DNA of 64,000 nucleotides from Forficula auricularia. Its lineage: Eukaryota > Arthropoda > Insecta > Dermaptera > Forficulidae. Position 1 is the stretch's first letter. Each line of letters starts with the position of its first letter. A model generated the notes under the pieces. The model made no database searches. It saw only the letters and a list, made by a program, of their open reading frames with translations, and was not told the DNA's origin. Positions 3,152-63,695 of the stretch are shown here, in pieces. Location: contig JALMQS010000102.1 in assembly GCA_024734495.1 (NCBI GenBank), forward strand, positions 10,325,140 through 10,389,139. The letters are read 5' to 3'. The position numbers and the translations under genes were made by a program.

Positions 3152-4783
3152 ATTACACTGCTAGACAAAAATTAAACAAAAATTTCTCCCCATAAACCTA
3201 ACAATGGATTCCTGTAGATTTTTCTATGCTGATTATCATGCAATTTCTAGATTTTTTACTACACGTTAGAATTTTGAGATATTATCGATCAAAATGACGA
3301 AAAAGACCATTTTTAACCAGTTTCGAGTCGCATTAAATATTAAACAGCAATATTTGAAATCAAAATATTTTATTGACTTAATAGAAAACAGCTTCCTCAA
3401 CACATTAGTTGTAGATAACACTGTTCGACAAAAATTAAACAACGTAAACTCTAACAATGGATCATAGATTCATAGAAGAGTTTTTGCACTGATTCTCTTG
3501 TCATAATATTTTACACACTTCAGAGTAATGAGATGTTTTTCAAAACGCCAAAAAAGGCTATTTTGACTAAATTTTGAGTCGTCATAGATATGAAATAGCA
3601 ATATTTGAAATCAAAATATTTTGTTCCCTTAATAGATAAAAATAATTTTTAAGAAAAAATAAAAACCGACTTCAAAAAATTAAATGCAACAAATAAAAAT
3701 ACACTAAAAGGTATAAAATAATTATTATCTTATTTAGTTACAACTAAACGACGAAATATTAACATGAAATTACTTTTTGAAGTCGGTGCCAAACAAACCA
3801 TACCTATAAGCGAGCGTACCCGCCAAACGTACTAAGTAAGATCCGTCGAGTGCGATTCATAAAGGTATATCTTTGGCACCGACTTCAAAAAGTAATTTCA
3901 TGTTAATATTTCGTCGTTTAGTTGTAACTAAATAAGATAATAATTATTTTATACCTTTTAGTGTATTTTATTTGTTGCATTTAATTTTTTGAAGTCGGTT
4001 TATTTTTTCTTAAAATTATTTTTATTTTTCTCTTTTTAGTGATGTTATTAATAGTGATCATATCATCAGAACTTGACCAAATTAATATGACACCATCCCT
4101 AAGACACCCCCTTTCGGATAAAAAAAGAACCCATCGAAATCGGTTCATAAACAAAGAGGTTAGGTCTAAACAAACTTAATAAAAAAGGTCTAATACCTAT
4201 GAAAAAAAACGAAAAAAAAAATGGGACCAATCGGAAGCTAGACTGGACCCAATGCAAAATTTTTTTCAAAATCGGTTGACAATTGGCGGAGATATGAGGT
4301 AACATAGGCACAAAAAAAAAAAAAAATTCTGTCGAATAGAGAATCTCCTCCTTTTTGAAGTCGGTTAAAAACAGCTTACTCTTTGATTTTCAAATTACCA
4401 CTTGTTTTTAGCTCAATTAGAACTCAAAACTAATGTTTTTATCTATGTTTATTATACTTTAAAATCAGGTAGTTTTAGTTTTAGATATAACTTGAGTTAT
4501 AATTGAGCTAAAAACAAGTGAGTAATTTGAAAATCAAAGAGGAAGCTGTTTTCTATTAAGTCAATAAAATATTTTGATTTCAAATATTGCTGTTTAATAT
4601 TTAATGGGACTCGAAAATAGGTCAAAATGGCCTTTTTCGTAATTTTGACCGAGAATATCTCAAAACTCTGACGTGTTGTAAAAAATTGGGAAATTGGATG
4701 ATAATTAGCATAAAAACTCTACCGGAATCCATTGTTAGATTTACGGGGAGAAATTTTTTGTCGAACAGTGTAATTTTTGCTGT
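3152..4783. mobile_element. Large foldback element with nested family B insertion
   Basis: The segment 3152-3396 (starting ATTACACTGCTAGACAAAAA) is the inverted counterpart of 4549-4783. A second, direct copy of the arm follows at about 3418-3640, so there are two arms in one direction and one in the other. Between them lies a complete family B element (3641-4371). After it the foldback resumes with CAGCTTACTCTTTGATTTTC, which pairs with sequence near 4510-4550. No open frame encodes a transposase. Confidence 0.75.
3641..4371 (+). mobile_element. Family B element, copy B1 (loop isomer I)
   Basis: A near-complete copy of the most repeated element in the window. One end is a foldback module: arms at about 3641-3795 and 3873-4030, each with ACCGACTTCAAAAAATTAA and a shared GACGAAATATTAACATG core, around a unique loop (about 3796-3872). 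A roughly 340-bp tail follows (TAGTGATGTTATTAATAGTG to GTCGGTTAAAAA). Identical architecture is seen at 30067, 34259, 38999 and 62892. It encodes no protein. The ACCGACTTC end sequence resembles an abundant insect repeat, but I assign no superfamily. Confidence 0.85.
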
Positions 4784-13367: not shown

Positions 13368-13532
13368 CGAGGGGTGAACCACGATTGGAATTGGGTGTAC
13401 ACGTCTTTGGAATTATGTGGAATTGTTTTGGAATTCATTTGATAATGCCCCTTCATCTATTGTCTTCTACTTGGAAATGAAAGTGGAAGTGGAAGTAGGT
13501 GTACACGATATTAAGTTACGGTTCACCCCTCG
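13368..13532 (-). mobile_element. Family A miniature element, copy A1
   Basis: Termini CGAGGGGTGAACCACG and its inverse TTACGGTTCACCCCTCG bound 165 bp. The flanking 8-mers AGAAAATC and ATAAAATG agree at 6 of 8 bases, consistent with an aged 8-bp duplication. The interior holds GTGTACAC near each end and degenerate GGAATT/GGAAGT units, the unexpanded form of the tandem array seen at 22842-25054. Confidence 0.8.

Positions 13533-18137: not shown

Positions 18138-18202
<65 letters not shown>
18138..18202 (+). repeat. (TA)n microsatellite
   Basis: About 65 bp of alternating TA, located at the junction where the foldback arm is interrupted. Confidence 0.95.
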
Positions 18203-21452: not shown

Positions 21453-22541
21453 TTTAAAATATAAAAGATAAATACCGATAGAATGAGAGTAAAGATTCTA
21501 TAGAAAATCAATAGAAATTGTCAACTACTTAAGCCAAGGTGTTATGGATCGATAATTTCTGACTTAATAAACATTATCCAATACACCTCGAATTGAACTA
21601 TTATTGATTTTCTATAGACATATTCATAGATGTAAAAGCCATGTGATATCATTTATTTATTTTATTATTATTATTTTTTTTTATCAAAATAGTTTTGAAC
21701 GTTTATTAGATATTTTTGAAAAAAAAACACCAAGTGTTATCTGTACGATAACTATTCATATATCTATTATGTTATGTTGTGTAATAAGAATAACATTATA
21801 TAATAAAAGGGAGAAGGTGTATGGTAAAGCCACGTGGTGCATTTAAGTTTCTTCATATTTTTAAAAATTATTTTTTATTTGATTGCAAACCAAATTAATT
21901 GCTCTTTGAATGTTTTTTTTCTTGATGTTAATGAGAATATTATTTTTCTATATATAAACCTATTTTAGTTCTAGTATTATAATGTCTTGAAAAGAAAATA
22001 TTGACAAGGAAAAATCCATATGATTATATATTATTGTTACATAAAAAAAACTTTAAACTTATACTTGGAAAAAACATCTATTAAAAAATGAATTATTCGT
22101 AAATATATCCTGTTTTTATTGCATTTTTTGATTTTATAAATTCATCTTCAATTGCGTATCAATTTTTAGTACATTTGTTTTCATTATTACGATATGACCT
22201 ATATCAATAAAAAAAGTCCATGAAAGTGTTATTATATAATCATCTACTTAAAGACCGAGAGCTAATGAACATTTTGGACAATTATTTCAGAATACAAATA
22301 ACATATCCCTTACTGAAGTGTGAGCAGCACACACCCCTAAAGTGAAATTCTTACTCGCCGAATCCAGTCGTTTTTAGGGGTAAATGATCAGTGAAGATGT
22401 CAAAAATAGTATAAAATCAAGTCATTTCAATCAAATTTGATTTCAGGACATTTCCAATGACAATATTTACTATTTTATACGTAAGGCAGAACGATAGCCC
22501 AGTCGCTAAGGGGCGCCAGAACCCCCCAATGTGAATGATTT
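21453..22541. other. Spacer with a family C remnant
   Basis: 21690-21835 resembles the diverged right part of family C (TTATCAAAATAGTTTTGAAC, ending GTGTATGGTAAAG). Near 22493 GATAGCCCAGTCGCTAAGG looks like a lone A box without a B box. Otherwise nothing recognised. Confidence 0.4.
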
Positions 22542-22841
22542 ATACATTTTCTTAAATTTTTAAACAACAAATTAGGTTTATTATTTTTGTACAACACTCC
22601 TGGCTCTGGTTTTCATCAGTAGAGCCTTCTTTTTATTTATTCTGAAATTGTTTTCTAATGAATTTGGGATTTAAAAAACATAAATTTTGGCTCAAGTACT
22701 TTACGGTAGAGCCTAAATTTTACACAGCTTTTAAGAAGAGGTGACGAATGGATTGCCTATATTCAGGCGTTTGGTGTGTGCAAGGCTAGAATTTTTCTTT
22801 AGGAACAATCTAAATGTTTTCAAATATTGCTTAGGAATAAC

Positions 22842-25054
22842 CGAGGGGTGATCCGCGATTGGAAGTAGGTGTACACCTATTTGAAAGTATTTTGGAAGTA
22901 GTTGAAAATATTTGGAAGTACTTGAAAATATTTGAAAGTATTTGGAAATATTTGAAAGTACTTGGGAATGTTTGAAAGTACTTGTGAATATTTGAAGTGC
23001 TTGGAAATATTTGTAAGTACTTGGAAATATTTGTAAGTACTTGGAAATATTTGGAATTACTTGGAAATATTTGGAAGTAGTTGAAATATTTGGAAGTAGT
23101 TGGAAATATTTGGAAGTACTTGGAAATATTTGGAAGTACTTGGAAATATTTGGAAGTAGTTGGAAATATTTGGAAGTACTTGAAAATATTTGGAAGTACT
23201 TGGAAATATTTGGAAGTACTTGGAAATATTTGGAAGTAGTTGGAAATATTTGGAAGTAGTTGGAAATATTTGGAAGTAGTTGGAAATATTTGGAAGTAGT
23301 TGGAAATATTTGAAGTAGTTGGAAATATTTGAAGTAGTTGGAAATATTTGGAAGTAGTTGGAAATATTTGGAAGTAGTTGGAAATATTTGGAAGTAGTTG
23401 GAAATATTTGGAAGTACTTGGAAATATTTGGAAGTACTTGGAAACATTTGGAAGTAGTTGGAAATATTTGTAAGTAGTTGGAAATATTTGGAAGTACTTG
23501 GAAATATTTGGAAGTACTTGGAAACATTTGGAAGTAGTTGGAAATATTTGGAAGTACTTGGAAATATTTGGAAGTACTTGGAAATATTTGGAAGTAGTTG
23601 GAAATATTTGGAAGTACTTGGAAATATTTGGAAGTAGTTGGAAATATTTGGAAGTAGTTGGAAATATTTGGAAGTAGCTTGGAAATATTTGGAAGTAGTT
23701 GGAAATATTTGGAAGTAGTTGGAAATATTTGGAAGTAGTTGGAAATATTTGGAAGTAGTTGGAAATATTTGGAAGTACTTGGAAATATTTGGAAGTAGTT
23801 GGAAATATTTGGAAGTAGTTGGAAATATTTGGAAGTAGTTGGAAATATTTGGAAGTAGTTGGAAATATTTGGAAGTACTTGGAAATATTTGGAAGTAGTT
23901 GGAAATATTTGGAAGTAGTTGGAAATATTTGGAAGTAGTTGGAAATATTTGGAAGTAGTTGGAAATATTTGGAAGTACTTGAAATATTTGGAAGTAGTTG
24001 GAAATATTTTGAAGTAGTTGGAAATATTTGGAAGTACTTGAAAATATTTGGAAGTAGTTGGAAATATTTGAAGTACTTGAAATATTTGGAAGTAGTTGGA
24101 AATATTTGGAAGTAGTTGGAAATATTTGGAAGTAGTTGGAAATATTTGGAAGTAGTTGGAAATATTTGGAAGTAGTTGGAAATATTTGGAAGTAGTTGGA
24201 AATATTTGGAAGTAGTTGGAAATATTTGGAAGTAGTTGGAAATATTTGGAAGTAGTTGGAAATATTTGGAAGTAGTTGGAAATATTTGGAAGTAGTTGGA
24301 AATATTTGGAAGTACTTGGAAATATTTGGAAGTAGTTGGAAATATTTGGAAGTAGTTGGAAATATTTGGAAGTAGTTGGAAATATTTGGAAGTAGTTGGA
24401 AATATTTGGAAGTACTTGGAAATATTTGGAAGTACTTGGAAATATTTGGAAGTAGTTGGAAATATTTGGAAGTACTTGGAAATATTTGGAAGTACTTGGA
24501 AATATTTGGAAGTAGTTGGAAATATTTGGAAGTAGTTGGAAATATTTGGAAGTAGTTGGAAATATTTGGAAGTAGTTGGAAATATTTGGAAGTAGTTGGA
24601 AATATTTGGAAGTAGTTGGAAATATTTGGAAGTACTTGGAAATATTTGGAAGTACTTGGAAATATTTGGAAGTAGTTGGAAATATTTGGAAGTAGTTGGA
24701 AATATTTGGAAGTAGTTGGAAATATTGGAAGTACTTGGAAATATTTGGAAGTAGTTGAAATATTTGGAAGTAGTTGGAAATATTTGGAAGTAGTTGGAAA
24801 TATTTGGAAGTAGTTGGAAATATTTGGAAGTAGTTGGAAATATTTGAAGTAGTTGGAAATATTTGGAAGTACTTGGAAATATTTGGAAGTACTTGGAAAT
24901 ATTTGGAAGTAGTTGGAAATATTTGGAAGTACTTGTAAATATTTGGAAGTACTTGGAAATTTTGAAGTATTTGGAAGTACTTGGAAATATTTGGAAGTAC
25001 TTGGAAATATTTGGAAGTACAAGTACAGCATATTAGGTCGCGGTTCACCCCTCG
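22842..25054 (-). mobile_element. Family A element, copy A2, expanded by an internal minisatellite
   Basis: Left end CGAGGGGTGATCCGCGATTG and right end GGTCGCGGTTCACCCCTCG are the same inverted termini as the 165-507 bp copies, and the flanks are an exact 8-bp duplication, GGAATAAC (22834-22841 and 25055-25062). Almost the whole 2.2 kb interior is a tandem array. An 8-bp duplication fits hAT-like (or P-like) transposition. No transposase is encoded. The long minus-strand open frames (779 and 663 aa) exist only because the repeat unit contains no stop codon in any minus-strand frame. Confidence 0.9.
22880..25022 (+). repeat. Minisatellite, 20-bp unit made of two 10-bp halves
   Basis: The unit is TTGGAAATATTTGGAAGTAG (last base G or C), that is, two diverged 10-mers TTGGAAATAT and TTGGAAGTAG. 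Roughly one hundred units are present. The central part is most regular. The left edge (22880-23050) and right edge (24950-25022) are more degenerate, as expected if arrays grow and homogenise from the middle. Isolated 1-base indels (for example near 23310, 23675, 23980 and 24726) shift phase. Confidence 0.97.
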
Positions 25055-25301
25055 GGAATAACCTATACAAATTTGAGTATAGTTATAATATATCTATAAG
25101 TTTATGTATGAGAGCCGTTCAGAGCCCAATCCAATTAAGTTTATTAACCAAAAAATTTATGTTTTTTCAATCCCAAATTTATTAGCAAACAATTTCAGAA
25201 GAAGTAAAAAAAGGGCTCTACTGATGAAAACCAGAGCCAGGAGTTTTGTAAAAAAAAATAATAAACCTAATTTGTTGGTTAAGAATTTTCGAAAATGTAT
25301 A

Positions 25302-25884
25302 AATGGGGGGGCCAAGGTGTGCGTCATGCTTTTCTGGAGAATTTTTAGTTTTAAAACAGGAAAACATGCATTTCATGGGATATTGATATTTTTAGGGTAT
25401 GAAAAGAGTAAAATAATTAAGGCATCAATGGAACTTTGAAGTTATAATTGAAGAACAGAGAAGGATAAAATTAAGAAAAAGTTTGTATATAAAAAAACGG
25501 AGAAAAAAGTGAAACTTTTACATGACTTAGTACGCTGTTTGCAGTTTTGTTGAATAATGCAAATTGATTGTTTATTATTTTTTACTAGAGGAACGGATTA
25601 AAAAAATGATATTTTTTTTGAATACTCGTAATTTTTCATTTTTTTAACAGGAAGATCTGGAGCTAGAAAGCCTAAAATTTAATCAGTTCTCTGAATTGAA
25701 AATACAATGATTTTAGAATAAGAACGAACGTTCTACGACTTTTCGTTCCAAAGATATCGTGGAAATCAGAATCCATGCACAGAGAGAAATAGTTAAAGTG
25801 AAAAAAAAATATGGTTTAAAATTATTTTTCATTTTTCATCACGTTTCATACATTTTTAAACGCAATGAAAAATTAAAAAAAAAT
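25302..25884. other. AT-rich spacer
   Basis: No recognisable gene or repeat family. Confidence 0.5.
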
Positions 25885-27433: not shown

Positions 27434-27605
27434 CGAGGGGTGAACCGCGACCTAATATGCTGTACACCTACTTCCACTTCTACTTCCAAATATTTCCAAG
27501 CTCCCAAATATTTCCAAGTAATTCCAAATATTTCCAAGTACTTCCAAATATTCCAAGTACTTCCAAAGAGGTGTACACTTACTTCCAATCGCGGATCACC
27601 CCTCG
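27434..27605 (+). mobile_element. Family A miniature element, copy A3
   Basis: CGAGGGGTGAACCGCGACCT to TCGCGGATCACCCCTCG, 172 bp, flanked by GTTTAATC and ATTTAATC (7 of 8). The interior has a handful of TTCCAAATAT/TTCCAAGTAC units between the two GTGTACA-type subterminal blocks. This is the short form of the array in A2. Confidence 0.9.
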
Positions 27606-28144: not shown

Positions 28145-28651
28145 CGAGGGGTGAACCGCGACCTAATATGCTGTTCATCTACTTCCACTCGTACTACCAA
28201 ATATTTCCAAGTAGATTAAAAATTCACAGTTCATTGGACAATGTTTTTATTGAAGCTCTTATTCAATTTTTGTACAACGCTTCGTCTCTCTCGAGACTTT
28301 TTCAAGCAAAGAAAAATTCTACTATGTCTCAATTATTTTTATTGTTATCTCAACCAATGTTGCTCTAACCAATTGAGTGCTTGAAAAAGTCTCGAGAGAG
28401 ACGAAACGTTGTACAAAAATTGAATAAGAGCTTCAATAAAAAACATTGTCCAATGAACTGTGAATTTTTAATCTACTAATTATAATGGACATTAATCAAC
28501 ATAATTACCAAGTACTTTCAAACATTCCCAAGTACTCCAAATATTTCCAAGCACTTTCAAAATATTTCACAAGTACTTCCAAATATTTCCAAGAACTTCC
28601 AAATACTTCCAAAGAGGTGTACACCTACTTCCAATCGCGGATCACCCCTCG
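28145..28651 (+). mobile_element. Family A element, copy A4, with nested foldback
   Basis: Same termini as A3, with an exact 8-bp duplication GTTTCATC at 28137-28144 and 28652-28659. The interior tandem units are split by a 266-bp foldback (28211-28476). On both sides the TTCCAA units resume (to the right ACTTCCAAATATTTCCAAGA). Confidence 0.9.
28211..28476. mobile_element. Foldback nested in A4
   Basis: Ends GTAGATTAAAAATTCACAG and its inverse CTGTGAATTTTTAATCTAC. Arms share CTCTCGAGACTTTTTCAAGC, whose inverse includes GAGAGACGAAACGTTGTAC. A related half copy lies at 7383-7556. The GAAACGTTGTA segment resembles GAAA plus a short stem III and GUA of a hammerhead, but CUGANGA is replaced by CTTGAAA. 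Confidence 0.7.
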
Positions 28652-29863: not shown

Positions 29864-30066
29864 TAAGGGAGTTAGGTATTAGTTCTAGGTGAAACATTTT
29901 AATATAATAATTAAACTTGAGCAAGATGCGAGGTAGGTTTCACAGTTTTCTTTGACTCCTGATGATGGGCTCACCCCCGAAATGTATCGAATTCAAAACT
30001 CAATTTTGTTTTATTTCTTTTTTTGTGAAACCTACCTCGCATTTTGCTCAAGTTTTATTATTATAC
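29864..30066. mobile_element. Foldback with head module and hammerhead-like motif
   Basis: Head AGTTAGGTATTAGTTCTAGG then GTGAAACA. Arms ATTAAACTTGAGCAAGATGC and the inverse near 30035-30060. The loop contains CTGATGA, T, GGG...CCC, GAAA, TGTA, TC (29959-29988, plus), a hammerhead-like core with a three-pair stem II. Confidence 0.55.
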
Positions 30067-30777
30067 ATAATTTTTAAGAAAAAATAAAACTGACTTCAAA
30101 AAATTAAATGCAACAAATAAAATACACTAAAAGGTATAAAATAATTATTATCTTATTTAGTTACAACTAAACGACGAAATATTAACATGAAATTACTTTT
30201 TGAAGTCGGTGCCAAACATATACCTTTTATGAATCGCACTCGACGGATCTTACTTAGTACGTTTGGAAGGTATGCTCGCTTATAGGTATAGTTTGTTTGG
30301 TACCGACATCAAAAAGTAATTTCATGTTAATATTTCGTCGTTTAGTTGTAACTAAATAAGATAATAATTATTTTATACCTTTTAGTGTATTTTATTTGTT
30401 GCATTTAATTTTTTGAAGTCGGTTTTATTTTTTCTTAAAAATTATTTTTATTTTTCTCTTTTTAGTGATGTTATTAATAGTGATCATATCATCAGAACTT
30501 GACCAAATTAATATGACACCATCCCTAAGATACCCCTTTCGAATAAAAAAAGAATCATCGAAATCGGTTCATAAACAAAGAAGTTAGGCCTAAACAAACC
30601 TAACAAAAAGGTCTAATACCTATGAAAAAAAATGGGACCAATCGGAAGGTAGACTGAACCCAATGCAATTTTTTTTTCAAAATCGGTTCACAATTGGCGG
30701 AGATATGAGGTAACATAGGCACAAAAAAAAAATCAGTCGAATAGATAACCTCCTCCTTTTTTGAAGTCGGTTAAAAA
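30067..30777 (+). mobile_element. Family B element, copy B2 (loop isomer II)
   Basis: Same orientation, arms and tail as B1, but the loop (about 30220-30300) reads TATACCTTTTATGAATCGCA first, which is the reverse complement of the B1 loop. It abuts the preceding foldback directly. Confidence 0.85.
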
Positions 30778-34240: not shown

Positions 34241-34258
34241 GTCATAACTGTGGAATTT

Positions 34259-34992
34259 ATTTTTAACCGACTTCAAAAAAGGAGGAGGTTCTCTATTCGA
34301 CTGAATTTTTTTTTTTGTGCCTATGTTACCTCATATCTCCGCCAATTATCAACCGATTTTGAAATTTTTTTTTGCATTGGGTCCAGTCTAGCTTCCGATT
34401 GGTCCCATTTTTTTCGTTTTTTTTTCATAGGTATTAGACCTTTTTTATTAGGTTTGTTTAGACCTAACCTCTTTGTTTATGAACCGATTTCGATGGTTCT
34501 TTTTTTATCGAAAGGGGTGTCTTAGGGATGGTGTCATATTAATTTGGTCAAGTTCTGATGATATGATCACTATTAATAACATCACTAAAAAGAGAAAAAT
34601 AAAAATAATTTTTAAGAAAAAATAAAAACCGACTTCAAAAATTAAATGCAACAAATAAAATACACTAAAAGGTATAAAATAATTATTATCTTATTTAGTT
34701 ACAACTAAACGACGAAATATTAACATGAAATTACTTTTTGAAGTTGGTGCCAAACATATACCTTTTATGAATCGCACTCGACGGATCTTACTTAGTACGT
34801 TTGGCGGGTACGCTTGCTTATAGGTATAGTTTGTTTGGCACCGACTTCAAAAAGTAATTTCATGTTAATATTTCGTCGTTTAGTTGTAACTAAATAAGAT
34901 AATAATTATTTTATACCTTTTAGTGTATTTTATTTGTTGTAATTAATTTTTTTGAAGTCGGTTTTTATTTTTTTCTTAAAAATTATTTTTAT
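34259..34992 (-). mobile_element. Family B element, copy B3 (loop isomer I)
   Basis: Tail first (ACCGACTTCAAAAAAGGAGG), foldback module on the right. A 91-aa open frame over the tail is a by-product and recurs only where homopolymer lengths allow. The loop orientation relative to the tail equals B1. Confidence 0.85.
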
Positions 34993-37199
34993 TATTAATC
35001 CTTTGTAATATTTAGCCTCATTTTTGACAAAGTCCTAAGCATAATTTTTATATATACAATTTAAAAATGGAAAACAATATTTATTTTTATTATTCCCGAG
35101 TACATTTTTGTTGATTTTACTTTCACTTAAATGCCGAGTGGAAAGTGAAACGATGGCGGCAGGCTATTTTCAAACACACTACTCAGTGGACTACAAGGGA
35201 AATAATTTAAAAATTAAATCACATTTATAACAAATTAGAAAATTTAAAAAATTGTTTTAATTGTCTAGATCTTAAGAATATGACAAAAAACAAATAAATA
35301 ATGGTAATTTTAGTAGACCAATTTCTACCAAAACTTCACTCGTAGTATTTGGAGAGTCCAGTATCTTAAATATTATTATTTTTTTTTACTTTCACATTTA
35401 TTTTAATTCAAAAGACTTCAAAATGATAATTTCTGGTAAAAACTCAAATTTGCAAATTTGAGCTTTCACAATAATTATTTAAGTTAAGCTATTCCGTTTT
35501 CTTTTTCTTTATGATGATCTGAAGATTATATATTTTATTTTCCATGAGATTCATATTGTATGAATAATCACCGAAAATATGATAAATTGAGTAGATTAAA
35601 ACGTTTAGTAGGTCAACGAGTAAATTAGTTTGACTCTTATCAATTCACTAGACTTATTTTATGACCTGATAAGGATGAACGAGAAAGTTGAAAGCTCGAT
35701 AACAAAACGAAAATTCTGAATTTGTATTTCAATTTGTTGCTTATATATTTATTACAAAATTATTTGATGTTTTTTCATTTAAATTTCAGTTTTACATATT
35801 TAATTCCTTGGATTTATAACGAAATTTTCTTTACCACAATACTACAAACGTACATATTATTTCTATTAATATCTAAAAAATAGAAACCGGGATTTAGTGT
35901 AATAGAAATCTTATTTTTGTGGAAAAATTAAAAGTGAGATTTTTAAAGATATTTATTTATTTTTTGAAAATCTGTGTATGTATTAACAATTAGCTGACTA
36001 TACTGTTGAACCAATTTCAATAATTCAGAGAAGAAGATATTCAATTAAAAAAAACCCTCAAAACAAGCCAAATTGCCAAAGAAAACATCTTTTTACAAAC
36101 GAAATCAGAATAAAAATAAGTAGAAAATGAATAATTAAATCAAATGATAATTTAGAATGAGGAATTATATAAATTTTTTTTATTATTTGATAATAGAAAA
36201 ATTTTAAAAGTTTCATCTTGAGTGTAATATAAATACATATTTGACATGAAAATTTAAGGTAGTTGTTTCGCGACAATACTAGCAAAAAGTTAATGCTAGA
36301 GTATATAGAACATACAATAAGGATTCATAATTCATAAGCCTAAAACTTTTTGCTGTTTATGTACCACTACTAGCCAATCCCGTGCTCGTTTGACAAATCT
36401 GGCAACACTATCAGAGCTTGTATATATTTTATCATAGAAATTTCAGATAAAGTCCATTATAAAGGGAGATTTATTAAACAAAAAGTTCTTAATAAGCGTT
36501 TGAAAGCTGTTGCGACAATGGCTGAAGCGAAAAAACGGCAAAAAAGTACTAAGGTTAACACACTTTTTAGGTTAATAAATGCGTTGTTACCAGCTTGTTT
36601 TTAGCGTAAATTTTTCATTATTTATTCCATATTATCTCAGAAACTGTGTGGTAACTATGAATTAAAATTTTTTTAAAAAATGTATTAGTTATATTTAAAA
36701 GAGAAAGAATTCAATCAATCTTTTTCGGACAAATTCTGAGATTTTAGTAGATTGATTTTTTGAAAAAACTTCCAACTATTTTCAAAAAAAAAAAGATCCT
36801 CAAAACTTTAGTTTTGTATTAGTTATAGTTTAATGTTGGTTTAGTTTTTTTATAACAATAGTAAGAAGAGTTTCTTAATTATAATTAAATATGTATGTAA
36901 ACTTTTCGATATCCTGTATAGTGCAATGTATAAGAGTCTGAAAAACTCTATCTTTAGAATTTATACTATATTGTTCATAAATTTCGTTTTGCCACCAATC
37001 GATGCAGAAGTATTTAAATAATAATCTATCTAAATTTCAAAAAAAATCCTAAAAAAACCCATATGGTGAAACAACTACATTAATGAAGTTATAGTCAGAA
37101 TAGAGTTTTCTTTAATGAAGCGAAAGACAAATCTTTATAATCATCAATAAAATGGAAGTACGCAAACATCTATGTCTGTACAATCCGAGAACTTGCGCG
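34993..37199. other. Longest stretch without assigned repeats
   Basis: About 2.2 kb of AT-rich sequence with none of the window's repeat families. At 36518-36553 an ATG in good context (ACAATGG) opens twelve codons ending at AAG before GTTAAC, which could be a tiny first coding exon with a splice donor. This is weak evidence. If a host gene exists in this window, this region is the likeliest place. Confidence 0.35.
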
Positions 37200-38775: not shown

Positions 38776-39850
38776 GAATATTGTTATCGATCTCGCCTCA
38801 AGCGCGACTTCAAAGGGTCCTCAGGTAAAGACTACGGAACCCATGGTCTCAACCAAAGTCACAAATTGTAGTATTCATTGACGTTGAATTTTTGGGCCTG
38901 TCCAAAATTACATGGAGTCTCGTCCAGAGACCAAAAAGTGCGATTTTTTCATTTATTCCTTGGGGGTGTATTGTGTTAATGTGGATGGGATGTTACCCTT
39001 TTTTAACCGACTTCAAAAAAGGAGGAGGTTCTCTATTCGACTGATTTTTTTTTTTTTTTTTGATTTTTTTTGTGTCTATGTTACCTCATATCTCCGCCAA
39101 TTGTGAACCGATTTTGAAAAAAAATTTTGCATTGGGTTCAACCTAGCTTCCGATTGGTCCCATTTTTTCGTTTTTTTCATAGGTATTAGACCTTTTTTAT
39201 TAGGTTTGTTTAGACCTAACCTCTTTGTTTATGAACCGATTTCGATGTTTCTTTTTTTATCAGATAGGGGGTGTCTTAGGGATGGTGTCATATTAATTTG
39301 GTCAAGTTCTGAAGATATGATCACTATTAATAACATCACTAAAAAGAGAACAATAAAAATAATTTTTAAGAAAAAAATAAAAACCGACTTCAAAAAATTA
39401 AATGCAACAAATAAAATACACTAAAAGGTATAAAATAATTATTATCTTATTTAGTTACAACTAAACGCCGAAATATTAACATGAAATTACTTTTTGAAGT
39501 AGGTGCCAAACATACCTTTTATGAATTGCACTCGACGGATCTTACTTAGAACGTTTGGAGGGTATGCTCGCTTATAGGTATAGTTTGTTTGGTATCGACT
39601 TCAAAAAGTAATTTCATGTTAATATTTCGTCGTTTAGTTGTAACTAAATAAGATAATAATTATTTTATACCTTTTAGTGTATTTTATTTGTTGCATTTAA
39701 TTTTTTGAAGTCGGTTTTTATTTTTTTCTTAAAAATTATTTTTTTCCACACCGTTCAACCAATTGAAATGAAATCGTAGGTATCTATTTCCAGGGACACA
39801 GACACGCAGACATTCAGACACTCGAGGCAGATACACATATACAGAAAAAA
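38770..39850 (+). mobile_element. Family D copy D5 split by B4
   Basis: 38770-38998 carries D interior sequence (GCGACTTCAAAGGGTCCTCA, GACTACGGAACCCATGG). D sequence resumes after B4 with TTTTTCCACACCGTTCAACC. The outer TTTACTTTATCC end is displaced or lost. Confidence 0.65.
38999..39744 (-). mobile_element. Family B element, copy B4 (loop isomer I), nested in D5
   Basis: Complete copy with tail at left. The loop reads like B3. Its insertion splits family D sequence, giving a relative age: D5 before B4. Confidence 0.85.
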
Positions 39851-43309: not shown

Positions 43310-43717
43310 CGAGGGGTGAACCGCGACCTAAAACCTTTTTTTTTTTTTTAATGATATTGATGTGAGAAGGAGATACACCAGAAGGTCCATCCCCTAAAGG
43401 CCTGTATGGGCAGGCCCCTCCATCGTGAAAAGAACAGAGTAGAAGGAAAAGAAGCCGGGATCACGAGCCAAATCTCAGAAAGTTAGATATAGTTCAATTT
43501 ACTAAGTTTTTAGGGGCTTCGAGCAGTGGTAAATTCTCCGCGCGATAAATTAGGTTAAATTTATCTCTCACTTAATTTTTATTACTAGACCCTATACTTA
43601 CAGAAAAAATGTCTGGGTATAGCCAGGAATCGAACCCGAGACCTCCGGGTTGCCAGCCAATAACTGACTGAAATATGCTGACCATTACACCTAATTCCAA
43701 TCGCGGTTTACCCCTCG
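43310..43717 (+). mobile_element. Family A element, copy A5, filled with a SINE
   Basis: Termini CGAGGGGTGAACCGCGACCT and CCAATCGCGGTTTACCCCTCG with an exact 8-bp duplication ATATTTGT (43302-43309 and 43718-43725). The minisatellite interior has been replaced by a reversed SINE, leaving only about 25 bp of family A at each end. Confidence 0.9.
43336..43695 (-). mobile_element. tRNA-derived SINE
   Basis: On minus: a tRNA-like head with TAATGGTCAGCAT (D-arm region) and B box GGTTCGATTCC (43627-43637), T arm TCGGG-TTCGATT-CCTGG paired, and the anticodon-stem-like CAGTC...GGCTG. A roughly 200-bp body follows, then a LINE-like tail (CACGATGGAGGGGCCTGCCC, CTTCTGGTGTATCTCCTTCT) and A's (T run 43336-43349). 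The head is closest to tRNA-Asp/Glu types. The tail resembles the 37-kb LINE 3' end, as expected if that LINE family mobilises it. Confidence 0.75.
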
Positions 43718-45875: not shown

Positions 45876-46005
45876 ATTGAATACGAACAACCAACTTCGA
45901 TCCAAAATCGGTGTGGGTGCTCATTCTTGAGAACGGTCTATCGAAACGTCGTAGTTATATTGTATTATTTGTTCGTGTTCAATAAATATAATTATAATTA
46001 ATATC

Positions 46006-46806
46006 CAGGGAGACTCCCTTAGTCCGCTGCTTTTTAATATAGTTATGGATGAAATCATTGGCGAAATCAAAAATCTAAAAGGATATTCCTTGGGGGACGA
46101 GAATATAACATGCGTTTGCTACGCAGACGATGCAGCACTCGTTGCAGAAGATGAAGATTCCCTCCAGCGCCCCCTGTATAAATTTAGCTGTGTTGCGCAT
46201 AAATTCGGTCTCACCCTGTCAACCAAGAAGACCAAAACACTGACAATCTCTAAATCACCACTCCGATGTAAACTACAACTGTACGATACGATTGTCGAAC
46301 AAGTCATGTCCTTCACATACCTTGGCATCCAAATGACCTCTCATCAAGACCTAGAAACAGAGGTAAGACATCAGGCAATAAGAGCCTCAAAAATATCGGG
46401 TTGCCTTAACAATACAATCTGGTCAAATCAATATTTAAGAACGGAGGCCAAGGTACGAGTCTACAAAACCGTAGTACGTCCAATATTAACTTACGCAGCA
46501 GAGACAAGACCCGACACTGCAAAAACTTCTCAATTATTGGAAACGACTGAAATGAAGACATTACGAAGGATAATGAACGTGACCAGGCTCGATAGGATGA
46601 AGAGTGAAGATATTAGAGAAAAATGTGGAATACAAAAGGTGGGCGAATGGGTTAAAAGAAGAAGAGCGGAATGGTATGCGCATGTGAGAAGAATGCCAGA
46701 AGACCGGCTGGTAAAGAAAGTGATGACAAACAAGCCGGTTGGAATAAGAAGTAGAGGTCGTCCTAAGAAGAGATGGTATGACGTTCTGGAAGAAACAAAC
46801 CTATAG
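46006..46806 (+). pseudogene. Non-LTR retrotransposon reverse transcriptase, 5'-truncated
   Basis: The frame opens in RT block 4 (QGDSLSPLLFN, 46006) and runs without interruption to a stop at 46804-46806. CVCYADDAALVAED (YADD catalytic motif, 46120-46131) is followed by the thumb (FTYLGIQMTS; YKTVVRPILTYAAE) and the C-terminal signature SRGRPKKRWYDVLEE common to insect endonuclease-reverse transcriptase elements. The endonuclease domain and the first catalytic Asp block are missing, so it cannot work alone. It is joined directly to unrelated sequence at 46003. It resembles the 51935-53262 copy but is clearly diverged. The clade (RTE-like or relatives) is left open. Confidence 0.9.
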
Positions 46807-50063: not shown

Positions 50064-51934
50064 GGCTATTTGAGCTCAATGGTAATAAAAATGTAGAATT
50101 TCAGATTTGATGCTTTGGTAGTTGAGTTGATTACTAAAAAAGTGAAATTCTACTGATTAGGGAATGAAATGTTCGCTGAAATGAATAAAACATATTTAAT
50201 AAGATCTTTGATTCACGGCCTTAAAATTCTTGGCAATGATTTGGCTAAAATATAGCCACTGGGGACATTGGGTTTTTAAGAAAACAGCACATTTTTAAAA
50301 AATTGAAAAATGCATTCGATTTTAATGATTAATTTATCTAGTTGGTTTACAACTATTCTAGTCACTCACCCACCGAGAAATTGTCTCAATTTAATGAATG
50401 CAAATCTATCAAACTTGAAAATTAGGTTATGATTTAAAAACATATACCTTTAAATTAGAATGTTATTCGTTGAATATTATTTCAAAAACACTTTAAATAA
50501 AAATATTTGAATGAAAAATTTAAATATATATAATAAATTAATGAAAATTTGAAAGATTTTTCGCAGGCGATGTCTTTGTCTTGTTTAAGAATGGAAGCCA
50601 TATTTAAATGATCCTCTATTGTTGCGTTCTTTATTGTCGCTAACAATTCAAATCTAATGTATTGTTTAAATATTTCAAATTTAAATGAATAATAACAAAA
50701 TAGAATTAAATTTATTAATTGGAGGTGAAAATGAAAACAATCTCAGAATAAAATTGAATTATTCAAATGAATACAATCTCAAGCATTGGTATGATCTCTG
50801 AAAATTATGCAAATAGTCGGTGGTGAGCTATGCTAGCCAGCTAGAATTTGAGCCATCATACCAACAAATTTAAATATAATAAAATATTTAAAAAATATAC
50901 ATTATATAATTTTAATAATATTTCTAAATTACAAATTGTAATGAGTTTTATTACGGAGTTTTAACATAAATAAACCAATAGATTAATAAAGTGAAATTGA
51001 AAAAATACATGTTTGTTCTTGTAAATATATAACAAAGCCTTAAAATATTTACGATTTTTTTTTTAATTTTTGATAATATTAAAAAAACAGTCCATATCTG
51101 ACCTTATGTTAATTGAATTTTTGTTGTTTTAAATTTCAACTATTTATCTAAAAATTTTGTAATTAGAAAGAGAGCGGAATTTAGAAAAAATATTAATTTT
51201 AGAAATGATTGAAATTTTAATCAAGACAAATTCTATTAACAAAAAGTCACATATGAACTGTTTTACTTAAAAAAATAAAAACAATGTTAAAAATGTTTAT
51301 TATTTTTATTTCATGTGATTTCATCTGCAAGATAATCTGTAACATTGTCTATTTTCAAAATATTTATTTATTTATAGTTGCTTTAGATTCCCTTCTTAAA
51401 GCAACAATTTTTTCAAATTTCTTAAAAATTATATTGTTAAAGGAACAATTTTTCCCGAAACGTTAGAATTTTAAATAAATGTTTTTAAATTGAATTTTAT
51501 AAAAGATATGTAGGTAAGTATTTAACATATTTATATATAAAACAATCAAAGAAATTTTTTCAATTGATATAATATAGGTATACCTTATATACCGAGACAA
51601 TTTATTGAATACCTACATTAAATTTATTAAGAGCTAACGAATTGATTTATGAATTAAGGAGCCTACCTTTGAATTAGGATCTTAATCCGTTGTCTGTTAT
51701 TTTAAAACTACTTTAAAAAATATTATATCTAAGTTAAATATTTAATTATATATCAGAAATTAATGAAAATGTGCGAAATTATTCGCAGACGATGCGTTTA
51801 TTCTGTTTAAGAATGGAAGCCAAATTTAAATGAAACTTGAGTCGCGTTCTCTATTGTTGCTAACAATTCAAATCTAATACATTGTTCAAGTTTTTCAAAT
51901 TCAAATTTAAATTTATTCTTATAAAACTATTAAA
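50064..51934. other. Long AT-rich spacer
   Basis: A diverged duplication is visible: GCGATGTCTTTGTCTTGTTT (about 50569) against GACGATGCGTTTATTCTGTTT-like sequence (about 51789), each followed by AAGAATGGAAGCCA and later CTAACAATTCAAATCTAAT. No coding. Confidence 0.5.
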
Positions 51935-53262
51935 AAAATCAAAAGGAAAAGCAGTATCACTATACCGGTTTTTAAAAAGGGCATCAAAACAGATCCGGAA
52001 AACTATCGAGGAATAACCCTGTTGAATACTACCGCCAAACTATTCTCTAAAATAATCCTAAACATTCTTTTAGGGTTTATCTCGCCAAGAGAAGAACAAC
52101 AGGGGTTCAGGAAGAACAGATCCACCACAGATGCCATATTCATCATTAGACAACTAGTTGAAAAGGCAATAGAGTTTAATAGGCCAGCATATCTTTGCTT
52201 TGTCGATCTCTCCAAAGCCTTTGATCGTGTAAGGTTACAGGATGTTACGGAGTGTCTTCTCAAGCGAGGCGTTCCTCCAAGAATTTTAAAAATTATCCAA
52301 GATCTAAACACAGGTAACACGACTTACATCAAATCCAATAGCGAGAGAACAAATCCTATTAGCATCTTCAGTGGAGTAAGACAGGGAGATTCATTGAGTC
52401 CTATGCTTTTCAACGTGATAATGGACGATATTATCGAAAATCTACCCGAACACCTTGGCTACAAATTGGGGAAATCACTTTGCCAGTGGTGTGCTATGCT
52501 GATGACGCGGTCCTGATGGCGGAGTGCGAAGAGGACCTTCAAATTCTCCTGGACAAATTCTCCTGGACAAATTACTCTTGAAAATTCCGATCGGCTTAAC
52601 ATGCAAGTCTCTACCACCAAGACAAAATGCATGACGATTGCAAAAGCTTCCCTTAGGTGTAACTTAGTCAGCAACAACAGTCCAATTGAACAAGTCCCAA
52701 GCTTTAACTATCTGGGAGTTCAGATTTCTAGCAGACGAAACCTTAAGGAAGAAGTAACTTCGCAAGTCATCAAAGGAGAAAAAATTTCGGGCTGCCTATC
52801 CAATCTAGTCTGGAAAAATAAGTTTATGTCTTCCGAAAGTAAAATTAGGATATATAAGACCTGTGTTCGCCCGATAATAACATATGGGGCTGAGTCCAGG
52901 GCAGACACAACCGTTACAAAGCAGCTTCTCCGGACAACTGAGATGAGAGTTGTAAGAGCCATCCATTCGAAGACCCTACATGACAAAATCCGGAGCGAAC
53001 ACCTTAGGAAAATAAGCGGTCTTCAGGACATAGTCGATTGGGTTCATGTAAGAAGAAGATGCTGGGCTGCCCATGTAGACAGAATGCAAGACGACCGTCT
53101 CCCGAAAATATTGGCAAAAAACCGTCCCGAGGGGGTCAGAAGCCGTGGAAGACCAAAAAAACGATGGAAAGAGAGTTATGACCCTGATGACTGATTATAA
53201 TATGTTGGAGAACAGGTGTTCAAACCTATATAGAAGAATAAGAAGAAGAAGAAAAAAAATCA
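51935..53262 (+). pseudogene. Non-LTR retrotransposon reverse transcriptase with frameshifts
   Basis: Reading begins in the fingers (TIPVFKKGIKTDPENYRGIT near 51958), continues with QQGFRKNRSTTDAIF, the first catalytic block FVDLSKAFDRV, and GVRQGDSLSPMLFN. The frame then slips near 52470, so the YADD motif (52495-52506) falls in another frame. A second slip occurs near 52568, beside a 14-bp direct repeat (CAAATTCTCCTGGA twice, 52540-52567). The C-terminal frame 52601-53194 includes NYLGVQIS and SRGRPKKRW. An A-rich 3' end follows at about 53233-53262. The endonuclease is missing. Inactive copy, related to 46006-46806. Confidence 0.92.
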
Positions 53263-62800: not shown

Positions 62801-62891
62801 CAGTCGGTGAATATTATATATTTTTGTATTTTTTTAATTTGAAAACGGCTTTCAAATAAAAATCGACATTTTTATCAGAATTATAAATTAA

Positions 62892-63626
62892 AAAAATAAT
62901 TTTTAAGAAAAAAATAAAAACCGACTTCAAAAAATTAAATGCAACAAATAAAATACACTAAAAGGTATAAAATAATTATTATCTTATTTAGTTACAACTA
63001 AACGACGAAATATTAACATGAAATTACTTTTTGAAGTCGGTACCAAACAAACTATACCTATAAGCGAGCGTACCCGCCAAACGTACTAAGTAAGATCCGT
63101 CGAGTGCGATTCATAAAAGGTATATGTTTGGCACCAACTTCAAAAGTAATTTCATGTTAATATTTCGTCGTTTAGTTGTAACTAAATAAGATAATAATTA
63201 TTTTATACATTTTAGTGTATTTTATTTGTTGCATTTAATTTTTTGAAGTCGGTTTTTATTTTTTTCTTAAAAAATTATTTTTATTTTTCTCTTTTTAGTG
63301 ATGTTATTAATAGTGATCATATCATCAGAACTTGACCAAATTAATATGACACCATCCCTAAGACACCCCCTTTCGGATAAAAAAAGAACCATCGAAATCG
63401 GTTCATAAACAAAGAGGTTAGGTCTAAACAAACCTAATAAAAAAGGTCTAATACCTATGAAAAAAAAAACGAAAAAAATGGGACCAATCAGAAGCTAGAC
63501 TGGACCCAATGCAAAAAAAATTCAAAATCGGTTGACAATTGGCGGAGATATGAGGTAACATAGGCACAAAAAAAAAAAAATTCAGTCGAATAGAGAACCT
63601 CCTCCTTTTTTGAAGTCGGTTAAAAA
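62892..63626 (+). mobile_element. Family B element, copy B8 (loop isomer I)
   Basis: Complete, same orientation as B1 and nearly the same sequence throughout, suggesting recent spread. Confidence 0.9.
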
Positions 63627-63695
63627 TAATATTAAAATAAAGCTTTTAACTGAAGGAAGAAGTTACCGAGCATCGCTCGGTGCCTCCAGGTACTT

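Follow-up and report, generated by a model that had tools for sequence, protein, structure and literature searches.

A MITE-like family in Forficula auricularia with an internal tandem array of variable length

Introduction

Satellites arising inside MITEs have already been described several times, and MITEs containing tandem repeats were reportedly found, to go by the title of work from 2013 by Satovic and Plohl, in Donax trunculus. In two reviews (PMC12628747, PMC9659126), several MITEs are named as having given rise to tandem arrays. Described there is miDNA4 of Xenopus tropicalis (Scalvenzi and Pollet 2014), a MITE that contains a single monomer or else an array whose copy number varies. 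Its longer-array copies are the proposed source of satellites without inverted ends, and one of the reviews sets out the scheme, in which the array first grows internally and the ends then decay. They also describe Xstir of Xenopus (Hikosaka and Kawahara 2004), which exists as a MITE, as a tandem array and in composite MITE-array forms, and whose repeats may derive from internal sequence. In Drosophila virilis (PMC4079207), Tetris, described together with TIR-220, is a non-autonomous foldback element with a variable number of tandem repeats and, in complete copies, target-site duplications (TSDs) of 8-9 bp; two Tetris alleles lie one repeat apart, and amplification takes place within the element. 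The bacterial BrickBuilt of Porphyromonas gingivalis (PMC4596501) is a MITE that holds a 23-bp minisatellite between a leader and a tail in which small inverted ends are included. Coral CMITEs were considered and set aside as not close, given their TTAA duplications (PMC2872659).

Here we describe family A of Forficula auricularia, a rich further case. Like miDNA4, it includes a MITE-borne array of variable copy number; miDNA4 is assigned to Tc1/mariner and a capture origin was proposed for it, whereas family A has 8-bp TSDs and a 10/20-bp unit that is like the subterminal motifs of its array-less relatives. The mechanism proposed for Xstir uses two neighbouring elements, and in family A we saw a single comparable composite (L090, below). 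Tetris (PMC4079207) has units of ~220 bp within long inverted repeats, three structurally complete copies and arrays of up to 66 repeats, whereas the units of family A are 20 bp long and form a single central block, and its copies number in the thousands; for Tetris, repeat-alone contigs are reported, though fibre-FISH saw no repeat-alone array. BrickBuilt resembles family A in the short period of its repeat, and its forms were found 19 times in one bacterial strain (PMC4596501).

Results

Five family A elements and the insertion of A2

The window, by which we mean the whole stretch of 64,000 nucleotides analysed here (assembly GCA_024734495.1, contig JALMQS010000102.1, positions 10,325,140 to 10,389,139), holds five pairs of inverted CGAGGGGTGAACCGCG ends, designated A1 to A5 (10 matches at up to 3 mismatches; shuffled sequences gave a mean of 0.02 and never more than 1), with flanking 8-mers that agree at six to eight positions (Table 1). 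In this respect, the five copies with inverted ends and 8-bp duplications described in an earlier note on this DNA, made from the sequence alone, were found again. The longest of them, A2, measures 2,213 bp, which is unusually long for a MITE, and has 16-bp inverted ends: its left end reads CGAGGGGTGATCCGCG, its inverted right end reads CGAGGGGTGAACCGCG, and GGAATAAC stands on each flank. Tandem Repeats Finder (TRF) assigned its interior a period of 20, 106.8 copies and 95% matches, in agreement with the roughly one hundred 20-bp units and exact duplication that the same note had given. The minus strand of A2 contains three long open frames, which are best read as by-products of the stop-free 20-bp period.

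A2 lies between the arms of a dispersed foldback repeat, and the inner part of the left arm has paralogues elsewhere. We joined A2's two inner flanks with one GGAATAAC, giving a predicted empty site of 242 bases, and compared it with the genome. All 40 places scored, out of 1,032 genome candidates, span the junction at 86-92% identity, and the four empty sites that were fetched are all gapless at the junction and hold one target copy, with one base changed in two of them. Since the joined flanks match paralogous empty sites, A2 is a true transposon insertion.

Two of the remaining window copies are themselves interrupted or altered. The array of A4 is broken by a nested inverted-repeat (foldback) insert, and A5 combines plain family A ends and an exact TSD with a tRNA-related, A-tailed, SINE-like interior, the MITE interior being mostly gone; A5 may have arisen by insertion accompanied by loss, or it may be a chimaera moving as one.

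Table 1. Positions of family A elements and associated features, counted from the first letter of the window
Feature	Position	Strand	Evidence or remark
A2, family A array-subfamily element	22842..25054	+	paired inverted ends, TSD, empty sites
A2 left target-site duplication GGAATAAC	22834..22841	.	read directly; 8/8 match
A2 right target-site duplication GGAATAAC	25055..25062	.	read directly; single copy in 4/4 fetched empty sites
A2 left terminal inverted repeat, GATCCGCG type, array-subfamily marker	22842..22857	+	
A2 right terminal inverted repeat, exact CGAGGGGTGAACCGCG	25039..25054	-	
A2 tandem array, 20-bp unit TTGGAAGTA[G/C]TTGGAAATAT, ~107 copies	22891..25016	+	TRF
Left arm of dispersed foldback repeat holding A2	22538..22688	+	90.2% inverted match to 25152-25304; inner part has paralogues
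Right arm of dispersed foldback repeat holding A2	25152..25304	-	inverted match to left arm
A1, plain-subfamily relative, 165 bp, without array	13368..13532	+	TSD 6/8
A3, array-subfamily relative, 172 bp	27434..27605	-	TSD 7/8
A4, array-subfamily relative, 507 bp, nested foldback insert ~28210-28477	28145..28651	-	TSD 8/8
A5, plain-type ends around tRNA-related SINE-like insert	43310..43717	-	TSD 8/8

Family A across the genome

In the 1.06-Gb assembly (845 contigs), the terminus occurs 18,918 + 19,111 times (38,029) at up to one mismatch, with 1 + 6 matches for a reversed control, and a 40-base array word occurs 8,668 + 8,094 times at up to three mismatches (control 0). When viral and prokaryote contigs were searched for the family with a terminus word of 23 bases, neither set yielded a stretch (0 in each). 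Family A was not found in the part of the open-licence literature that was covered, including a search by sequence string; when terminus and unit were used as strings, the papers listed contained only the 10-base string and had unrelated titles.

For a closer reading, we used 80 stretches on contigs C3 and C4 (20 of ~10 kb and 60 of 1 kb), 79 of them at places among 100 listed zero-mismatch terminus matches and one (L015) adjoining such a place. Together with the five window copies they gave 86 paired elements, a sample biased towards two contigs and towards copies in which one terminus or both are exact and of GAACC type. Unpaired termini in the fetched stretches (12, and 2 more) were left out of the element counts; some are parts of copies interrupted by inserts or truncated where the stretch ends, and some look like chance matches.

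TSDs agree at 7/8 or better in 64 of the 86 elements. Among the first 68 elements this held for 52, and sliding the right side by 1, 2, 3 or 20 bp reduced the number to 0-2 of 68. Target duplications show a tendency towards the palindrome GTTTAAAC: among 49 distinct sites, counted on both strands, roughly half have G as the first base and C as the eighth. Array copies L099 (with L108, contig C625) and L101 (contig C804) stand at one site, GTTRYAAC, in opposite orientations and apparently in the same repeated target sequence, and this shared site suggests a preferred palindromic target. On contig C4, element sequence is common to the copy pairs 791977/806653 (with 793994/804632), 1804039/2027528 and 2651248/2654413, which look like segmental duplications, the 791977/806653 set being inverted by strand and position; both flanking 8-mers are common to the copies in L039/L042, L048/L050 and L056/L057.

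Plain and array subfamilies

Copies whose longest run comprises at least four consecutive units were classed as array copies, and those with at most three consecutive unit matches as plain. The 86 elements accordingly divide into 68 plain copies, including A1 and the SINE-filled A5, and 18 array copies, including A2, A3 and A4. Most plain copies (61/68) are 140-170 bp long, one (L038, 61 bp) reaching barely beyond its two ends; A1's subfamily has at most three consecutive degenerate units, and each plain copy holds one to six single motif matches. The two subfamilies also differ at left bases 9-13, which read GATCC in 17/18 array copies and GAACC in 55/68 plain copies. The exact GATCC-type left-end word occurs 1,727 + 1,736 times genome-wide (control 0), so that one genome contains 3,463 exact words marking the array subfamily, a count of words and not of arrays.

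This division qualifies what the earlier note had claimed. Interiors built of 10-bp units, attributed there to A1 through A4, are present in A2, A3 and A4 and missing from A1, and an array common to all five copies was rejected, A1 and A5 being without one; the satellite that family A was said to carry belongs to its array subfamily (18/86) and not to the plain majority. Copies lacking the 10-bp units altogether had been named as evidence against the idea, and the plain copies come near to this in a softened form, having no array and yet keeping their single motif matches.

The array copies of this terminus-based sample range from 156 to 2,213 bp; two contain nested inserts, A4 and L059 (706 bp), and the 15 other than these and A2 measure 156-476 bp. 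Family A has several features of a MITE, namely terminal inverted repeats, TSDs, empty sites, short length and high copy number, and its sampled copies other than A2 are, judged by length, too short for a transposase. The 8-bp TSD is a hAT-type feature that is not diagnostic, as such duplications are made by hAT and also by P-like elements. A usual hAT element has a CAG-type terminus and a hAT transposase, and a CGA start is not usual; of the first 68 family A elements, 64 start with CGA. Family A is best explained as a high-copy, non-autonomous inverted-repeat (MITE-like) family with 8-bp target duplications, and we leave its superfamily unassigned.

An array probably already diverged when the subfamily spread

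With A2 excluded, unit identity within and between copies is 0.553 and 0.552 in one class of units (25 copies) and 0.158 and 0.148 in the other (26 copies). Because two units of one copy are no more alike than units of different copies, we infer from these comparisons that the spread of the subfamily began with an array that had already diverged and comprised several units. The short seeds that the earlier note had supposed to be spread by transposition would accordingly give way to an already diverged array. Measured against a reference along 116 bp of terminal and subterminal sequence, 22 of 23 copies show 1-8 differing positions and A2 shows 11, eight of which fall at its right end, where a short deletion occurs. 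Longer arrays in older copies were considered and rejected: length, which the earlier note had suggested plotting against copy divergence, showed no relation to terminal divergence (Spearman 0.05, p 0.83, n = 23; ends matching at up to 4 mismatches; L056, L059, A4 and L090 left out).

Evidence for local growth of arrays

The A2 array has degenerate edges and a nearly uniform core enriched for GTAG. Counting junction words, we found 63 GTAG and 29 GTAC in A2 versus 0 GTAG and 62 GTAC in the 17 other terminus-sampled array copies, the enrichment in the A2 core being two to one and not complete. The exact 40-base GTAG dimer has 58 places in the genome, 38 in A2 and the other 20 distributed over 14 loci with at most four each; GTAG is also present in small numbers in 15 loci selected for it. 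Since exact dimers lie at 14 other loci too, what sets A2 apart is the amplification of GTAG and not the presence of GTAG as such. To compare the edges with the core, we assigned 12 blocks to the edges (8 on the left and 4 on the right) once the array had been read, and accepted G or C at unit position 10: the edge blocks carry 2.17 errors per 20 bp versus 0.18 in the other 94 blocks (permutation p 5e-5), as expected from the degenerate edges and central expansion proposed earlier.

Signs of growth are not confined to A2. Among 32 array copies (L056, a duplicate of L057, was left out), 22 unit triplets are private, that is, repeated in one copy and absent from the other 31, versus a null mean of 4.1 and a largest value of 12 in 300 shuffles; without A2 there are 16, versus a null mean of 1.6 and a largest value of 6. 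Besides A2, private triplets are found in seven copies (L018, L089, L091, L092, L095, L100 and L102), and repeated blocks can be seen on reading in L092, L100 and L102. Both the amplification of GTAG in A2 and these copy-private triplets sustain the earlier claim that local expansion makes arrays.

Within A2, the longest repeated block of the G/C string is 15 versus a null mean of 13.0 (p 0.20), and unit variants cluster weakly (40 runs versus 48.4 expected, p 0.046). As the repeat length is near chance and the clustering weak, no large block duplication is visible in A2. A special link of A2 to A4 through the left edge of A2 was likewise discarded, A4 ranking below L057, L046, L011 and L056 in flank similarity. 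The sole informative segmental duplicate pair, L056/L057, differs by small indels only, with no jump in unit number.

A single array of 2 kb in a single assembly might arise from faulty assembly or sequencing, and thirteen 9-bp units do suggest single-base indels; however, termini, TSD and both degenerate edges of A2 are intact, its two unit variants are interspersed, and other copies reach 490-1,079 bp with TSDs of 7/8 or 8/8. We consider such an artefact most unlikely as the source of the long array.

Arrays and their termini

A2, whose array of ~2.1 kb is the longest seen, is also the longest of 30 two-ended array copies and twice the length of the next. Part of this set comes from 15 loci picked by array content (L089-L103), which are about half of the listed loci and are biased towards GTAG-bearing arrays. 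Left and right termini are present in 13 of the 15, one terminus in L092 and none in L089; arrays mostly outside family A termini, the outcome that the earlier note had named as contrary to its idea, were not seen among these loci. Twelve of these loci are elements with both ends, of 1,079 bp (L091), 654 bp (L099), 546 bp (L100), 490 bp (L095) and, in eight cases, 206-425 bp; the degenerate left end of L096 was placed by eye. Their TSDs are exact in ten, 7/8 in L091 and absent in L100.

The other three loci have unusual structures. In L090 (C706:362500-364000), a tandem duplication of ~207 bp includes a left family A end, array and a short spacer, leaving two left ends and one right, as in an array that swallowed a terminus; its outer 8-mers do not match each other. 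L092 has lost its left end and keeps GTAAAAAT on both sides as a full TSD. L089 (C631:18263100-18264600) is an array of ~560 bp with neither terminus, at the start of which a stretch similar to the inner left part of the element is retained; it looks like the remnant of an element, and is a candidate freed satellite. With this one clearly terminus-free array, the earlier phrase that the locus catches satellite birth is too strong genome-wide; local expansion inside a mobile element is the best reading. In 262,921 bases made up of the window and of stretches chosen around termini, all 22 runs of at least four units fall within elements. These counts support the conclusion that, in what was sampled, arrays sit almost only inside family A elements, and they lie between the MITE ends in variable copy number as in miDNA4.

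The same loci bear on the question of whether the 20-bp array is a pre-existing satellite that was captured, or invaded, by family A. The lack of both termini in L089 would fit such an origin, and capture was proposed for Xenopus miDNA4 (PMC12628747). However, the array-selected loci comprise 12 with both termini, the L090 duplication, L092 with one terminus and a full TSD, and L089 as the sole one with none; L089 keeps its inner-left-like stretch, as a remnant would; and the array units, on reading, resemble the subterminal motifs of plain copies. A captured satellite is thus a very improbable origin of the array.

Discussion

The insertion, the subfamily structure, the variable array length, the copy-private repeats and the degenerate edges reported above are, in our judgement, quite probably the outcome of a MITE-like array subfamily that spread and whose arrays then grew locally and in place, furthest in A2. 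The GATCC-marked subfamily has fixed subterminal sequences that enclose an array of 10/20-bp TTGGAANTAN units, and transposition, with a transposase presumably supplied in trans, would have spread copies already holding several diverged units. Single copies would then have shifted their array length in place through local duplication, by slippage, by unequal exchange or by break repair copying a misaligned array. In A2, the central units, two thirds of them the GTAG variant, would have been amplified to ~107 after the present insertion, the first and last few staying near the inherited array.

The growth of A2 may also have occurred at an earlier site of the same element, because elements of the cut-and-paste type take their cargo, here the array, with them when they move. 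A2's ancestor could have expanded elsewhere before the 2.2-kb element moved whole; the still exact TSD of A2 means that the insertion may be younger than the expansion. However, the assembly is without a second long GTAG-rich copy, the 20 exact GTAG-dimer sites outside A2 numbering at most four per locus, and local growth seems to be common, to judge by the private repeats that seven other copies contain. We therefore regard expansion before the present insertion as unlikely and prefer growth in place.

A more speculative idea, to which we give little credence, is that the 10-bp units multiply a subterminal motif putatively bound by the transposase or a host factor, and that length turnover would be part of the transposition cycle, through misaligned gap repair after excision. 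If this were true, the family would be a self-lengthening minisatellite, and in its thousands of copies one could read how arrays of a few units lengthened to about 100.

In the copies read, the insertion scars are mostly intact, and the number of 20-bp units in the arrays varies between a few and ~107. Also represented are array-less relatives, private repeated blocks, a copy that has lost one end and retained its TSD, an array without termini, and a tandem duplication in which an end is included. The order of events in satellite birth, from spread through local growth to the loss of ends, would thereby be countable in one assembly.

Other features of the window

Elsewhere in the window, a repeat of ~740 bp is present in five copies that are 87-97% identical (3629-4371, 30055-30777, 34257-34999, 39000-39745 and 62883-63629), each containing an inverted self-match of ~380-400 bp. 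Reverse-transcriptase fragments (Pfam RVT_1) lie at 45955-46806 and 51911-52516, and a perfect (TA)32 run occupies 18139-18202.
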